Assembly (NCBI RefSeq): GCF_002959755.1
Contig: NZ_PPCW01000001.1
Location: 744,001-808,000 of the forward strand
Length of the DNA stretch: 64,000 nucleotides
Source: Veillonella sp. T11011-6
Lineage (GTDB): Bacteria > Bacillota > Negativicutes > Veillonellales > Veillonellaceae
Direction of reading: 5' to 3'
Position 1 is the first letter of the stretch. Every line of letters begins with the position of its first letter. Below the pieces are notes generated by a model, which had not been told where the DNA came from, searched no databases, and saw only the letters and a list, made by a program, of their open reading frames with translations. A program made the translations under genes and the position numbers. Positions 16,067 through 42,857 of this stretch are shown here, piece by piece.

Positions 16067-16142
16067 TGGTGGACCACCAGGGGTTCGAACCCTGGACACC
16101 CTGATTAAGAGTCAGGTGCTCTGCCAGCTGAGCTAGTGGTCC
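16067..16142 (-). tRNA. tRNA-Lys (anticodon CTT)
   Basis: Folds as a standard cloverleaf of 76 nt: acceptor GGACCAC/GTGGTCC, D-arm GAGC-type, anticodon stem CCTGA/TCAGG with loop CTCTTAA, T-arm CAGGG TTCGAAC CCCTG, discriminator A and encoded CCA. It reads AAG codons. Confidence 0.97.
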
Positions 16143-37029: not shown

Positions 37030-37775
37030 CAAAATCATAACCAACCGTAGAACGGGTGGTTTGCTCTGACCCTATAAGGGTCTTTCTTTAGTGGTGGCCC
37101 TCTAAAGAGGGCATTGAATGATCTGATAACCACTCTATTACCACTGGCTGCCCCCTACTTTGGGGCTTTTATTTTACCTATTTTACTGGCTCACCCATAA
37201 ACGGGTCGGTATATTCTTTAAAGTTTAATATATCTTGCGCTATATCCTCTTGTAGTTGATTGCGAATGTACTCTTTTATCGCTCCATCATATCGTCCTAC
37301 CGTATCCACATAATATCCTCTACACCAGAAATGTCTATTTCTATACTTATATTTTAAATTTTCGTGTTTATCGAATATCATGAGGCTACTTTTTTAATAG
37401 CCCATAAAACTTGATACGCTTAAATGTGGTAGTATAGTTACTAGCATATGAATATGATCCGGACAGCATTCCGCTTCTATAATCTCTACATTTTTTCTCT
37501 TACATAAATCTCTTAAAATTTTACCTACATCAGCTTTTATCCGACCATAAATTATTTGTCTTCTATACTTTGGAGCAAAACAATATGATATTTACATCTC
37601 CATTTACTATGTGATAAACTCTTTACGTCATTCATTGACATTGAACCTCCTATATTAAAATATTGTGGTTGCCAGACCAACTTCATTTTATCACTAGGAG
37701 GTTCTTTCCTTTTCTCTAAGAATTTTTACTGACCCCCAGTTTAACTGGGGGTTTAGTCATGCCTATTCGGCGTAC
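37030..37775. mobile_element. Decayed IS200/IS605-type element
   Basis: A tnpA pseudogene (37178-37641) is flanked by subterminal hairpins: AACCACCC-type pairing near 37040-37065 and the perfect palindrome of CCCCCAGT and ACTGGGGG (37733-37751). No tnpB follows, so it is IS200-like. Exact ends are not proven because this family leaves no target duplication. Confidence 0.7.
37178..37641 (-). pseudogene. IS200/IS605 TnpA transposase, frameshifted
   Basis: Start ATG at 37641 behind GGAGG gives MSMNDVKSLSHSKWRCKYHI, then the frame breaks within a T-run. In the next frame APKYRRQIIYGRIK and the HUH motif CCPDHIHM appear, then a TAA after SSFMGY with a small deletion. The last 67 codons (HFWCRGYYVDTVG, catalytic Tyr in AIKEYIRNQ, GEPVK end) are intact. 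At least two disabling changes make it inactive. Confidence 0.85.
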
Positions 37776-37811
37776 AATAAAAAAAAGGGTGTAACGATAA
37801 TTGAATAAATA

Positions 37812-37853
37812 ATAAAGAGCCTGTAACGATGTAAAACAATCATTATAGGCTCT
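37812..37853 (-). terminator. Terminator of the ubiD operon
   Basis: AGAGCCT/AGGCTCT with inner TAACGAT/ATCATTA pairing, shortly after the lpdD stop; short T-rich tail on the minus strand. Confidence 0.75.
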
Positions 37854-37883
37854 AATTTTATCAAGCGAATTAATAGCTACTAT

Positions 37884-38270
37884 TTAGTTTTGTATAATCT
37901 GTTCGACCAACAGTTTACTATTTTCAAGTAACTTTTCAATATCTAATATATCAGCATCATCTACATGAACACCAACACTTACAGTTACAGTAGTATTAAA
38001 ATGCCTTGATAGTTTTATCGCAGCGTCCTTGGCTAATACATCATCTTTATGTCCTAATACAGCCATGACAGATGTGGTAATTGTAGTCTTTCCTGGATTA
38101 ATGATACTTTCAGACGGAGTAGCAATAGCTACTGCACCTATATGATATCTATTACCACCACCAATCGTAACAGATATATCCTGCCCAACAAATGTGACTA
38201 TAGCTTGAATACAATATGGTGTAACCCCATAAGTATATCGTTTTACTTTCATCTCATCATAACTATTCAT
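37884..38270 (-). CDS. lpdD: LpdD-like prenylated-flavin chaperone
   Basis: 128 residues resembling the small gallate-decarboxylase subunit LpdD. Conserved KRYTYGVTPYCIQAIVTFVG, GGGNRYHIGAVAIATP and a central conserved ATTSVMAVLGHKDD-like run are present. The protein is thought to help load or maintain prenylated FMN in the UbiD partner. It is last in the ubiD-carrier-ubiX-lpdD operon, 8 nt after ubiX, behind GAGGAG. Confidence 0.85.
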   Translation of the reverse strand: MNSYDEMKVKRYTYGVTPYCIQAIVTFVGQDISVTIGGGNRYHIGAVAIATPSESIINPGKTTITTSVMAVLGHKDDVLAKDAAIKLSRHFNTTVTVSVGVHVDDADILDIEKLLENSKLLVEQIIQN

Positions 38271-38278
38271 AATACTCC

Positions 38279-38854
38279 TCAGCTTTTTATCATATTACGC
38301 CCAGTCCAAGAAACAAAATCTTTTGTCTCGAACCCAAACTGCATTAAAATTTTTCCAACAATATGATTGATTTGTTTTTCAACCGAATTAGAATCATTAT
38401 AAAAAGTTAATAATGGAGGAATAATTGAGCATCCGTATTCAGATAGTGTAGTTAAATTACGCAAATGAATACGACTAAACGGCATTTCTCTCGGTACAAG
38501 CACAATCTTTCTATTCTCTTTTAAGCAAACATCTGCAGCTCTCAATAATAGATTATCTGCAAATCCACAAGCCATTCCAGCAATACTTTTCATACTGCAA
38601 GGAACTACAATCATCCCATCGGTCTTATACGATCCGCTAGAAATAGTGGCAGCCATATTTTTATTATCATGAACTACATCTGCCAATGCCTCCATTTCTT
38701 CTACGGTAATAGAACTCTCATATTGCAAAGTGATCTTTGCACCCTCAGTCATGACCAAATGAATTTCCATTCCAGATATTTGACGCAACGCTTTAAGTAC
38801 ATAATAGCCAAGTATTACGCCACTCGCACCTGATACACCAACTATTAAACGCAT
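38279..38854 (-). CDS. ubiX: UbiX-type flavin prenyltransferase
   Basis: 191 residues of the UbiX/Pad1 flavoprotein family. VGVSGASGVILGYYVLKAL binds FMN, PCSMKSIAGMACGFADNL and RKIVLVPREMPFS are hallmark segments. It attaches a dimethylallyl unit to FMN, making the cofactor for UbiD decarboxylases. It is operonic with the UbiD-type gene at 40286-41764 and is probably its dedicated partner (LpdB analogue). Confidence 0.93.
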   Translation of the reverse strand: MRLIVGVSGASGVILGYYVLKALRQISGMEIHLVMTEGAKITLQYESSITVEEMEALADVVHDNKNMAATISSGSYKTDGMIVVPCSMKSIAGMACGFADNLLLRAADVCLKENRKIVLVPREMPFSRIHLRNLTTLSEYGCSIIPPLLTFYNDSNSVEKQINHIVGKILMQFGFETKDFVSWTGRNMIKS

Positions 38855-38882
38855 ACAATCACCTCATAGCACTAACCCTTAC

Positions 38883-40268
38883 TTACCAAAGGCCAATAAA
38901 TTTCCACCATGGTAATTGAATTGCACAAGTAATAACAAATAATACTAACGTATATGGTAAACCAAATCGTATGGTTTCTTTTTCACTATACATACCATTA
39001 TCTTCACCTTCACCCACTAATATTGCTAAATTATGGAATGGTAAAATAAAGTGAGCATTAATGGCTGTATATGCAATCATTACCGGAATAATTGGAGAAA
39101 TTCCAAGTGTTTCCGTGAAAGCAAGCATTGCTGGAATAACAATTCCCATAACTGCAACTACACTACCAAAGCACATATGAATAGCAATAGAGATAACAGT
39201 TATAAATGCACCGAGAATGAACATATTTTCAGGAACGGCAGATGGCAACAATGTTTGTGCTAACCATGTGTTCATCCCAGTTTGGCCCCCAACACGACCA
39301 ATTGCAACAGCAGCTGTTAAGAATAGTAATGTTTGTACAGGCACAGCAGACCAACTAGCAGGTGTTAAAATATCACCAATCTTTGGCATAGCCATCATTA
39401 CAGCGATAAACAATGTTACCCAACCAATATCAATTCCATGAATACTATCAGTCATCCATAAAATAATTGCTAAGATAACCCAAAATGCAGTACGAATTTC
39501 TTTACCTGTCATCGCACCTAATGATTCGCGCTTTTCCAAAATAGCTTGTTGATTAATAGAAACCTCTTTTGTAGGTTTAAACATCGTCATAAGCATAAAC
39601 ATAGTTATGATACTAGTTAGAATCATTGGGATACCCATTACTTTAAACCACTCAATCCAACCCACCTCTGTTGGTAGGCAGTACTGTGCAGCCAATGGAT
39701 TAATAGACGCATCCCCAGTTAAAAAAATCATTGAAACCGGAATAGATGCCGTAAACACTGTAAATCCAATTTTCACAGCATCATCTCTAGGCATATCAGC
39801 ACTTTTAATAACCACAGCCATAACAGACATAATTAAAAATGCCCGTGGCCAAGGATGTGGAATTAGTAACGACAATATAAAAGTTAATGCAAATATAGAA
39901 ATAATAATACTGTTGTAATTAGTTACATATTTAGAGATATACCAATAGGCGATTCTTTCCCCTAGCCCTGACTCACGTACTGCTGTAGCAATGAGATATG
40001 CACCAATAATAAGATACATCATTGATGTAGTCCAAGTAGAAAAAATCAACGTTTTAGGTGCTACATCAAACACTGCTAAACCTAATAGGTATAGCCCAGA
40101 AACATAACCTGGTTGAGCAACACCAAACGCCCAAAATATAACGGTTCCCAAAGATAATGCCAAACAAGCATGACCTTGTGGACTTAATCCGGCTAATGGT
40201 ACAAACCAAATTAAAAGCCCTAATAAAATCCCTAAACAGAATCCTATAATCCGTTTATATTTCCCCAT
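38883..40268 (-). CDS. DASS/SLC13-type carrier of the decarboxylase operon
   Basis: 461 residues, 12 or so membrane segments (LLIWFVPLAGLSPQGHACLA, TGDASINPLAAQY, FILPFHNLAILVGEG). The family exchanges or co-transports organic anions. Placed between ubiD and ubiX, it probably imports the aromatic acid or swaps it for the decarboxylated phenol, comparable to gallate carriers of lactobacilli. Substrate is inferred from context only. Confidence 0.82.
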   Translation of the reverse strand: MGKYKRIIGFCLGILLGLLIWFVPLAGLSPQGHACLALSLGTVIFWAFGVAQPGYVSGLYLLGLAVFDVAPKTLIFSTWTTSMMYLIIGAYLIATAVRESGLGERIAYWYISKYVTNYNSIIISIFALTFILSLLIPHPWPRAFLIMSVMAVVIKSADMPRDDAVKIGFTVFTASIPVSMIFLTGDASINPLAAQYCLPTEVGWIEWFKVMGIPMILTSIITMFMLMTMFKPTKEVSINQQAILEKRESLGAMTGKEIRTAFWVILAIILWMTDSIHGIDIGWVTLFIAVMMAMPKIGDILTPASWSAVPVQTLLFLTAAVAIGRVGGQTGMNTWLAQTLLPSAVPENMFILGAFITVISIAIHMCFGSVVAVMGIVIPAMLAFTETLGISPIIPVMIAYTAINAHFILPFHNLAILVGEGEDNGMYSEKETIRFGLPYTLVLFVITCAIQLPWWKFIGLW

Positions 40269-40285
40269 ATAATCACCTTCTTAAC

Positions 40286-41764
40286 TTATCCTTTATGATT
40301 AGGAACCCAATGTGTGGGATCTACATCCATAAATTTAGCACGTTGGAATCGTTTCTTTTCACTATATGGCACAGTAGCATCAAAAATTGTTTTGCATGCA
40401 ATACCATGATCACGAATAGTATAACTACAAGATGGATCATTAGACGGGTCTAATGGATGACAACGAACGCCTGGGATATTTATAATATCAATGTCCCCTT
40501 GCATTCTAGTAATCATAGCCCACATAACATCATTCATATCAAAGATATCAACATCTTCATCGACAAGAATAACTTGTTTTAATTCAGAAAATGCAGAAAA
40601 TGCTAGCAAAGCCGCTTGCCTTTGGCGACCTTCATCAGATGGTACCGATTTTTTAAACTGCATTACTGCCAAGAACTTTCCACCGCCAGGGCTTGCAGCA
40701 TAAACATTTAATAATCGACCAGGCATAGCGCGTTCAACCATATCCATAATAGAAGCTTCTGTTGGAATCCCCGCCATATTAACGTGTTCTTCAGATGGGC
40801 CAATACAAGTTTGCATTATTGGATTTTTACGTGTTGTAACAGCTTTTACTTTGATAATAGGAACCTCCGGATTTGCAGGTCCTGTATAACCAGGGAACTC
40901 TGGCATTGCTTTTCCTGTATTAGTATTAATATCTTCACGTAACCGTTTTCCTACCAAGAGTTCACCTTCAATAACATACTCAGCATTCGCTATACAATTC
41001 TCTTTAATTGTTAAGCATGGTGTTAGTTCAACAGCCTTTCCTCGAATGGCACCCGCAACAGCTAATTCATTATATCCAATAGGTGTTGTAGGTGGTTCAA
41101 AGCACGCACCTATTTCAATTGCAGGGTCTACACCAATACTAATAGAAATTGGTAGTGGCTTACCGAGAGCTTCCGCTTTTTCTCTAAAAGCACCTAGATG
41201 ACGTGCACCTGGAGTAAAGAACATTGTGATTTCATCTTTCGACTGTAAACAAAGTCTGTGAATCGTCACATCAGAGTCACCATTTTCCGTATCTGATGCA
41301 TAACACATCCCTAACGTAATATAAGGGCCCGCATCTTCTGGTGTATTAGTAGGTGCTGGTAATATTTTTCTAATATCAAAATCTGGATCTGTTGCCAAAT
41401 GAACAACCTCTTGGCATTGAGCTTTTGAAGAATCAATTACAATTGGTTGTATTGGATTTTTTACAGAATCTCGAAGTAGTTGACCTAGTTTATCTGGTGT
41501 TGTACCAAGTAGTAATGCTACGCGAGCACGGTCAGATAACATACCAATTACAACTTTAGAATTAGGGTGACCCTTTACATTGTTAAACATCATGGCTGGA
41601 CCTAATTTTGTTGGCCGTGCTACAGTACCACCGACACCAATATGGCGATAAACCCCCGCTAACTCAGCTGAAGGGTCAACCTCTACATCTGTACTAATTA
41701 ATTGTCCAGGTGTGTTTTCCAATAACTTTAGTGCAGAACGTAAATCAATAACAGAGTTTCCCAT
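40286..41764 (-). CDS. lpdC: UbiD-family aromatic acid decarboxylase (LpdC-like)
   Basis: 492 residues, the length of the gallate/protocatechuate decarboxylase LpdC. DVTIHRLCLQSKDEITMFF, PISISIGVDPAIEIGACFE, the acid-arginine region VIEGELLVGKRLRED, PEFPGYTGPANPE and LVDEDVDIFDMNDVMWAM are UbiD signatures. It decarboxylates hydroxybenzoate-type acids without oxygen by means of prenylated FMN. The lpdD and ubiX partners support gallate, protocatechuate or 4-hydroxybenzoate; menaquinone-pathway UbiD is less likely. Its promoter is MerR-controlled (41830-41860). Confidence 0.88.
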   Translation of the reverse strand: MGNSVIDLRSALKLLENTPGQLISTDVEVDPSAELAGVYRHIGVGGTVARPTKLGPAMMFNNVKGHPNSKVVIGMLSDRARVALLLGTTPDKLGQLLRDSVKNPIQPIVIDSSKAQCQEVVHLATDPDFDIRKILPAPTNTPEDAGPYITLGMCYASDTENGDSDVTIHRLCLQSKDEITMFFTPGARHLGAFREKAEALGKPLPISISIGVDPAIEIGACFEPPTTPIGYNELAVAGAIRGKAVELTPCLTIKENCIANAEYVIEGELLVGKRLREDINTNTGKAMPEFPGYTGPANPEVPIIKVKAVTTRKNPIMQTCIGPSEEHVNMAGIPTEASIMDMVERAMPGRLLNVYAASPGGGKFLAVMQFKKSVPSDEGRQRQAALLAFSAFSELKQVILVDEDVDIFDMNDVMWAMITRMQGDIDIINIPGVRCHPLDPSNDPSCSYTIRDHGIACKTIFDATVPYSEKKRFQRAKFMDVDPTHWVPNHKG

Positions 41765-41829
41765 AAAAAATAACCTCCTAACATACTGAAATAATTCATA
41801 TTCATAACAGCTATTTATTGCTTGCCATA

Positions 41830-41860
41830 AGAATACGCTTTATAGTTGCTATACAGTCAA
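41830..41860 (-). promoter_or_regulatory. MerR-type promoter of the ubiD operon
   Basis: Minus strand TTGACT (41855-41860) and TATTCT (41830-41835) are 19 bp apart, the overlong spacer typical of MerR promoters. Inside it lies the dyad TATAG-TTG-CTATA (41841-41853). Confidence 0.75.
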
Positions 41861-41880
41861 GAGGCTATTTATACAATTTT

Positions 41881-42741
41881 TTATTTTCTTTTAAATGGGG
41901 CCTGTAAAAGGCAAAAATCTTCTGTTCTATCTTGCTGATAAAATGTTGTATCTAACAAACATACATCAATAATATTTCCTGTCAATTCATAGTTGTTATC
42001 ATTCATCCATTGAAGCAAATATTGTGCATCTGAAATATCATATGGCATACCAAATTTATAAAGACAAATATACTCCCCTGCAGGAATTGTAATTAAATTA
42101 TCTAAATTTTCCGTATTCACGGGAACAAATATACAACTACCACTCTTAAATCGACCATCAGATTCACATGCTGTATCACTCGATTCACAGCCTAAACACT
42201 CCTTAGTTTCAAGTGTCAAAATAGTTCCAAACCCTGCAGCTGGTCTAATTCGTAGAGGCTCTAATTGTCTCCATAAATTCATCAATGTAAGATGTAATTT
42301 TTCTTTTGTCACATTTTCAGGAAATTCCTGATAAATCACTTTTCTCAATGGATAATATTTTATAAATGGTTCTGTTAAATTCATTTCATAGCCATCAACC
42401 GCATCATTAAGTATAGCTATTTGCTGATTTAGCGCTTCTCTAATATCATTCAACTCTGCAATCTGTTGATTAACCTTAGTTTTATATGCTGAATAAAACT
42501 CAAGAACTTTTTTAGGATTTGTATTTAGTAATACTTCTTTTATACTATCTAAACTTAAACCTAAAGATTTTAGAAAAACAATTTTTCGCAAAAAAGGAAT
42601 TTGAGCTCTACTATAATAGCGATACCCCTTTTCATCAACTTCAACAGGTTTAAAAAGATCAATATGGTCATAATGTATTAATGTCTGTCGACTCAAACTA
42701 TGGAGTCTGGCCATAGAACTAATTGATATTAAAGAATCCAT
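41881..42741 (-). CDS. MerR-family activator of the ubiD operon
   Basis: 286 residues. N-terminal winged helix (about 5-75: ISSMARLHSLSRQTLIHYDHIDLFKP, GYRYYSRAQIPFL), a coiled-coil dimer helix (about 80-115) and a C-terminal GyrI/BmrR-like ligand pocket (about 130-286) containing a cysteine-rich insert (CLGCESSDTACE). It directly precedes the ubiD operon on the same strand. It probably senses the aromatic acid and untwists the 19-bp promoter. Confidence 0.9.
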   Translation of the reverse strand: MDSLISISSMARLHSLSRQTLIHYDHIDLFKPVEVDEKGYRYYSRAQIPFLRKIVFLKSLGLSLDSIKEVLLNTNPKKVLEFYSAYKTKVNQQIAELNDIREALNQQIAILNDAVDGYEMNLTEPFIKYYPLRKVIYQEFPENVTKEKLHLTLMNLWRQLEPLRIRPAAGFGTILTLETKECLGCESSDTACESDGRFKSGSCIFVPVNTENLDNLITIPAGEYICLYKFGMPYDISDAQYLLQWMNDNNYELTGNIIDVCLLDTTFYQQDRTEDFCLLQAPFKRK

Positions 42742-42787
42742 AATAGTCTACCTCGCTAGAATAACTATAACACATCCCTATCTATAG

Positions 42788-42828
42788 ATTAATATAACCT
42801 GTATAGTTACTATACAGGCTATATTAAT
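42788..42828. promoter_or_regulatory. 41-bp palindrome upstream of merR
   Basis: 19-bp arms with one mismatch around TTA (42807-42809); the inner part repeats the TATAG-N3-CTATA dyad of the ubiD promoter, so it is a likely autoregulatory MerR operator. It could also act as a hairpin after the upstream M20 gene. Confidence 0.65.
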
Positions 42829-42857
42829 ACTTCATTTCTCTCAATAAAGCTATAATT

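Follow-up and report, generated by a model that had tools for sequence, protein, structure and literature searches.

The closest described systems include the gallate decarboxylation genes of Lactiplantibacillus plantarum and, at the level of the enzyme, the decarboxylase AroY (5ny5, 5o3n, and 5o3m). In excerpts of PMC4600210, the L. plantarum system is described as substrate induced, with a UbiX (LpdB), an LpdC-type UbiD, the LpdD protein, and a transporter gene (lp_2943) beside the decarboxylase gene; lpdC (lp_2945) lies apart from lpdB-lpdD (lp_0271-0272), and gallate decarboxylation was shown to give L. plantarum a proton motive force. Here, we report a minus-strand block, merR-ubiD-carrier-ubiX-lpdD, in a 64,000-nucleotide stretch (the window) of contig NZ_PPCW01000001.1 of Veillonella sp. 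T11011-6. The block is very probably a laterally acquired, self-contained operon for nonoxidative decarboxylation of catechol-type hydroxybenzoic acids, and its reading as a catechol-acid decarboxylase operon is well supported.

All five open reading frames (42741-37884) were intact on inspection, each start was preceded by a ribosome-binding-like stretch, and the ubiD/carrier/ubiX/lpdD gaps measured 17, 28, and 8 bp. Pfam scores exceeded curated cut-offs throughout (UbiD N-terminal, middle, and C-terminal domains, 50.8, 174.5, and 101.7 bits; UbiX Flavoprotein, 139.7; PAC_bac for LpdD, 112.8; Na_sulph_symp, 128.3; MerR_1, 46.2). By its layout, the block looks like one operon with the regulator directly upstream; the hairpin 3' of lpdD was absent from the output of a basic terminator scan, which considers loops of 3 to 8 only. 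A first-pass annotation had named four consecutive genes here (an LpdC-type UbiD, an organic-anion carrier, a UbiX flavin prenyltransferase, and an LpdD-like chaperone) behind a dedicated MerR regulator, and these identifications held, with transport still a predicted role. It had also equated the block with the decarboxylase kit of lactobacilli, which is not quite right, although UbiX, the LpdC-type UbiD, and LpdD are shared and a transporter gene adjoins the decarboxylase gene in both. In contrast to the split L. plantarum genes (PMC4600210, in excerpt), those described here form a single operon with its own MerR, whose carrier can be likened to lp_2943, called a member of the IT superfamily there, by description only. 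Regulator, carrier, and gene order also differ from those of a plasmid cluster of L. salivarius. Closer matches came from other Negativicutes, where six further regions of the class (L165 to L170, L167 being taken as L002, from Propionispora sp. 2/2-37) shared the five genes, their order, and the promoter geometry, with carriers 73 to 81% identical and UbiD proteins up to 84% identical. The open-access literature, searched by titles, abstracts, and a few passages, yielded no description of such a merR-ubiD-dass-ubiX-lpdD operon. The novelty lies in a conserved MerR-type promoter shared by several Bacillota families, a dedicated DASS subfamily, a DUF554 alternative to it, and the arrival of the operon in a genus without other prenylated flavin mononucleotide (prFMN) genes.

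Among solved structures, the window UbiD matched best the 3,4-dihydroxybenzoate decarboxylases 5ny5 and 5o3n (695 bits) and then protocatechuate decarboxylase 5o3m (663 bits), with the next match at no more than 210 bits. The species of these structures are presumably Enterobacter cloacae and Klebsiella, an attribution drawn only partly from PMC5656893. Escherichia coli UbiD (~93 bits), Fdc1 (~70 bits), and the NCBIfam menaquinone model (144; cut-off, 495.9) lay so far below the 695 bits of AroY that a menaquinone, ubiquinone, or ferulate enzyme was rejected; clustering with menaquinone or ferulate enzymes was not seen. The model of VdcC-type hydroxyarylic acid decarboxylases (NF041204) was also missed (472.3 bits; cut-off, 650). 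Residues R188, E289, H327, K363, and H436 have the same numbering in AroY and the window UbiD and were kept in 85 of 85 alignment rows, a number to which the window UbiD itself contributes three; exchange of any one of these residues abolished AroY activity (PMC5656893). That source describes AroY as accepting protocatechuate and gallate, preferring catechols, and not carboxylating simple phenols, and in one whole-cell test (PMC10865409), LpdC converted gallate alone and not 4-hydroxybenzoate. Given these substrate ranges and the kept catalytic residues, the substrate is likely a catechol acid, protocatechuate or gallate. By the same analogy, 4-hydroxybenzoate, which the first-pass annotation had put among the acids to try, would be a poor candidate.

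Both cofactor proteins were assigned above their model cut-offs (Table 1). In a pairwise alignment, H43, H74, and D76 of the window LpdD fell on the metal ligands H35, H61, and D63 of LpdD (by our count, the chain index and the published numbering differ by 2); the histidines were kept in 42 of 43 and 43 of 43 rows, respectively, and the Asp column was not among the columns conserved at 75%. LpdD is reported to bind only reduced prFMN and to assist in the activation of UbiD enzymes (PMC10865409). UbiX matches over cut-off, LpdD, and UbiD were each restricted to 1 of 14 genus genomes, in every case that of the window. The other genus genomes gave weak matches to the UbiX model (20 to 32 bits) within frames of ~400 codons, as we would expect of CoaBC. 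Because UbiX, LpdD, and UbiD are confined to this genome, the inserted block is predicted to supply the whole prFMN machinery. It is a compact natural cassette of sensor, carrier, cofactor synthase, chaperone, and enzyme. As the bacterium has neither a second UbiD nor a second UbiX, acquiring or losing the block would be a clean test of function.

Table 1. Features of the merR-ubiD-carrier-ubiX-lpdD block and its surroundings (window positions) and of DUF554 genes in related loci (positions within each locus)
Feature	Position	Strand	Evidence
MerR-family regulator, BmrR-type (helix-turn-helix, coiled coil, GyrI-like effector domain)	41881..42741	-	286 aa; PF13411, 46.2 bits
AroY/LpdC-type UbiD decarboxylase	40286..41764	-	492 aa; 62.5% identity to EcAroY (multiple alignment); R188, E289, H327, K363, H436 kept
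DASS-fold carrier, UbiD-linked subfamily	38883..40268	-	461 aa; PF00939, 128.3 bits over 27; model Z up to 29.6 against DASS structures
UbiX flavin prenyltransferase; sole genome match over cut-off	38279..38854	-	191 aa; TIGR00421, 216.4 over 108.9
LpdD, putative prFMNH2-binding chaperone	37884..38270	-	128 aa; PF21758, 112.8 bits over 27; PDB LpdD, E value 5e-6
MerR-box palindrome CTGTATAG-TAA-CTATACAG upstream of merR	42799..42817	.	DNA pattern search, 0 mismatches
MerR-type ubiD promoter: TTGACT (41860-41855), 19-bp spacer, TATTCT (41835-41830)	41830..41860	-	Sequence and locus comparison
Terminator-like hairpin (37853-37816) and T-rich tail, after lpdD	37804..37853	-	Fold of downstream stretch
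IS200-type element, broken transposase, left edge of inserted block	37033..37776	-	Empty-site break; right end approximate
Whole inserted block	37033..42850	.	dcuC and amidohydrolase gene adjacent here in five relatives
DUF554 gene	L003:7524-8264, L007:7559-8287, L008:6844-7590		Between ubiD and ubiX
DUF554 gene	L011:7495-8226, L014:7487-8284, L054:3526-4245		Between ubiD and ubiX

The window MerR resembles BmrR in domain architecture and in the best PDB match of its model (pLDDT, 84.8; BmrR on DNA with ligands; Foldseek E value, 5.5e-15), at 22% sequence identity; the matched structures were solved with aromatic ligands among others. BmrR controls a drug pump, unlike the window MerR, which is linked to a decarboxylase operon. 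The ubiD promoter reads TTGACT-GTATAGCAACTATAAAGCG-TATTCT, and a dyad (41856-41838) spans the end of its −35 element and most of its spacer. Long spacers that are untwisted by the bound regulator are a known mark of MerR promoters, and the two features expected of MerR-family activators, a helix-turn-helix and a dyad over a 19-bp spacer, were both present. TTGAC[TC] followed at 19-bp spacing by a −10-like hexamer occurred in all 16 MerR-linked ubiD loci examined (the window's included) and in 1 of 70 other UbiD loci; the −10 element was TANNNW in 15 of the 16 (14 by script and L170 checked separately) and CATAGT in L007. With a looser promoter pattern, spacings of 22 bp (four loci) and 21 bp (one locus) were also found among the 16, and spacings of 19 bp (once), 15 bp (twice), and 21 bp (once) among the 70. 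Left out of the MerR-linked set were L056, L171, whose contig lacks ubiD, and L167, which comes from the genome of L002; L056, in which a 32% identical MerR-like gene lies downstream of ubiD, was counted among the 70. That second set excludes L080, which begins at the end of its contig, and L001/L082, which are the window. In L011 and L014, merR lies downstream of ubiX.

At up to 2 mismatches, the MerR box was found in only two places in the 2.05-Mb genome, upstream of merR and at ubiD, and in none of 100 shuffles of the window; the rarity of the box by itself proves little because the reversed control also matched once in the genome. A sigma-70 scan using spacers of 16 to 18 bp only returned 34 sites (29.2 expected) and thus did not list the 19-bp-spacer promoter. 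The upstream palindrome suggests that merR may regulate itself. The substrate acid might be the effector.

The carrier model matched LaINDY with a Z score of 24.4 over 438 residues at 22% sequence identity, and the best PDB sequence match of the carrier was a chloroplast dicarboxylate transporter, which we take to be an exchanger. At ≥46% identity, the carrier was present in 16 of 380 genomes of the class, in a search that scored up to four candidates from each genome; below that level, the next matches stood at 30%. Nineteen of the 20 other places at ≥46% were fetched, from 15 genomes (G120:C140, at 49%, was left out). In all 19 regions, no more than 232 bp separated ubiX from the carrier gene; 17 had lpdD adjoining ubiX, and 17 had a UbiD gene, the carriers of the other two ending at a contig edge. 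The partner was an AroY-type UbiD with MerR in seven regions (L165 to L170 and L178, whose carrier is split in two frames) and an AroY-type UbiD without MerR in four, beside the carrier in L181 to L183 and 2.6 kb away on the opposite strand in L174. Six regions (L172, L173, L175, L176, L179, and L180) had a more distant UbiD; four of these were scanned and passed the VdcC model (722 to 740 bits), and the one searched against the PDB matched best 7ae4, a phenolic acid decarboxylase. The carrier, UbiX, and LpdD were thus observed as a module with decarboxylase partners of two types.

Because the carrier accompanies hydroxybenzoate decarboxylases of both types, hydroxybenzoates are likely its cargo, which would assign a probable substrate class to an uncharacterized DASS subfamily. 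Across 19 members, P137, H138, P139, D186, H364, G368, and S369 were invariant and R142 was Arg in 18 and Lys in 1; judged by sequence, these proteins form a distinct predicted subfamily of DASS. In the printed alignment, R142 and H364 fell on LaINDY R159 and H392 (by our count, the chain index and the published numbering differ by 3), so that Arg and His stand at both Na+-surrogate positions; in LaINDY, Arg159 and His392 fill the Na+ sites, and exchangers conserve both residues (PMC7553777, in excerpt). A plasmid search with the carrier returned only matches below 60% identity, at 23 to 26% among the 15 of 97 records listed.

The carrier slot is filled differently in some relatives. In six MerR-UbiD loci, a DUF554 protein is encoded between ubiD and ubiX (Table 1; the three scanned matched PF04474 at 209 to 219 bits), and in another, L050, no carrier precedes lpdD. 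DUF554-like frames (>60 bits) were present in 19 of 80 UbiD loci, and an open-access literature search found no paper combining DUF554 and UbiD. DUF554 proteins are candidate transporters of aromatic acids or phenols.

In the mechanism that we propose, an aromatic acid or related compound would bind the GyrI-like domain of the BmrR-type MerR, which would untwist the 19-bp-spacer promoter and switch on ubiD-dass-ubiX-lpdD. The DASS-type carrier would import the monoanionic acid; UbiX would make prFMNH2, which LpdD would hold in the reduced state and pass to UbiD; and UbiD would decarboxylate the acid nonoxidatively with uptake of a proton, converting protocatechuate to catechol and/or gallate to pyrogallol. 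The neutral phenol would leave, most likely in exchange for the acid on that DASS-type carrier, and the net inward movement of negative charge would generate a proton motive force. The decarboxylase reaction and the chaperone role of LpdD are probable by analogy with the characterized proteins; acid/phenol exchange with energy conservation, likewise argued by analogy, is conceivable but falls short of probable. We put forward tentatively the fuller proposal that the carrier founds a DASS subfamily marked by IPHP[WF]P[RK]xF and HxxxGSxxAV and dedicated to hydroxybenzoic acids, that its acid/phenol exchange yields a proton motive force in obligate anaerobes, that UbiX and LpdD supply prFMN in a genus otherwise without it, and that LpdD may permit anaerobic maturation. 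The operon as a whole would illustrate a route by which some anaerobes convert plant phenolic acids to catechol or pyrogallol.

Several points weigh against this picture. The carrier model is only moderately confident (pLDDT, 69.9), and the protein scored below the NCBIfam DASS cut-off (TIGR00785, 120.5 versus 198.6). In the carrier, IPHPWPRAF and HMCFGSVVAV stand in place of the SNT motifs, which bind dicarboxylate in VcINDY (PMC7553777, in excerpt), and T129 and V373 take the positions of LaINDY Glu146 and His401. The charge-compensation model of DASS exchangers given in the same excerpts would bar a neutral phenol. For the enzyme, oxidative maturation of prFMN in AroY required oxygen in vitro (PMC5656893), and the operon raises the question of prFMN oxidation without oxygen; Arg181 of that paper could not be located, since the alignment shows Ser as residue 181 of the EcAroY chain.

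The same operon might instead serve detoxification, the carrier being a uniporter, symporter, or exporter and the phenol diffusing out with little or no energy conserved, an account to which we also give only tentative credence. It gains from the loss of the SNT motifs and of the Glu146/His401 equivalents, because of which neither substrate nor coupling can be read from LaINDY, and from the DUF554 and L050 loci, which indicate that an exchanger is not obligatory. It loses to the retention of the Na+-surrogate positions of DASS exchangers (R142 in 18 of 19 members with Lys in the other, H364 in all 19) and to the chloroplast transporter match, presumably an exchanger. The proton motive force measured in the L. 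plantarum system (PMC4600210, in excerpt) also speaks for exchange with energy conservation.

It is unlikely that the UbiD has shifted to another catechol acid or to the carboxylating direction, with gallate and protocatechuate nonphysiological. UbiD enzymes are reversible, 62.5% identity leaves specificity unfixed, and characterized relatives differ, LpdC taking gallate only in its single whole-cell test and AroY both acids (PMC10865409 and PMC5656893); however, the five tested active-site residues are identical in the window UbiD and AroY, and the carrier subfamily has VdcC-type hydroxyarylic acid decarboxylases as further partners, which points to hydroxybenzoates as the common substrate class.

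Lateral acquisition of the decarboxylase operon is supported by an empty site and by distribution. In five relatives (G011, G005, G006, G002, and G012), dcuC and the amidohydrolase gene flank the empty site. Homology to G011 ended at 37032 and restarted at 42851, G011 having 46 bp where the window has 5.8 kb. Against the remaining four relatives, the breaks were at 37032/42856, 37009/42858, 36922/42859, and 36908/42851, and different short sequences filled the site. UbiD was found in one of the 14 genomes searched from the genus, one of 28 from the family, and two of 61 from the order, and the nearest UbiD proteins were those of Propionispora and other genomes. In a tree built with a quick method, the window UbiD fell within MerR-linked rows, and most of those with a name belong to Negativicutes (groups of 7 rows with support 97 and 10 rows with support 100). 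The best-fitting account is a gain by transfer within Negativicutes; inheritance from the ancestor of the genus, with loss in the other members, is less likely, given 27 of 28 family genomes without UbiD and five relatives with adjacent flanking genes. Base composition gave no clean signal and named no donor (third-codon-position GC content, 18.5 to 27.1 for the five genes and 27.8 to 36.9 for three neighbors; the 13-kb Propionispora locus, 46.7% GC).

The first-pass annotation had seen a hint of acquisition in an IS200-type relic beside the operon. The relic is real, 37178-37381 encoding the C-terminal end of a Y1 transposase whose frame is shifted (Pfam, 32.9 over 23; NCBIfam, 35.7 under 55), and acquisition itself stands, but the element was rejected as proof of mobility: with this one, the genome has four near-identical copies, the other three with an open 171-aa transposase frame, besides at least five more distant copies; two copies lie at contig ends. 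That the element brought the operon in is quite improbable, for although its left end is the empty-site break relative to G011 and G005 and so coincides with the left break of the block, the three near-identical copies lie away from the sole UbiD gene, the right edge has no second copy, later insertion or recombination fits equally, and we know of no IS200 transposition that carries such cargo.

Four side observations were made. In genome G092, a second, partial ubiD-carrier copy (L169:28-1868) lies upstream of the complete five-gene operon. L004, on a contig titled Accumulibacter that may be misbinned, has a UbiD inside the mostly Negativicutes MerR-linked clade (among the 10 rows). The phage-filed records MT836983 and OR848109 encode AroY-type UbiD proteins (66% and 60% identity), either as bacterial contamination or as real cargo. 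Elsewhere in the window, 60 bp (16080-16139) were 90% identical to "Bacteriophage sp." MT836887 from human feces.

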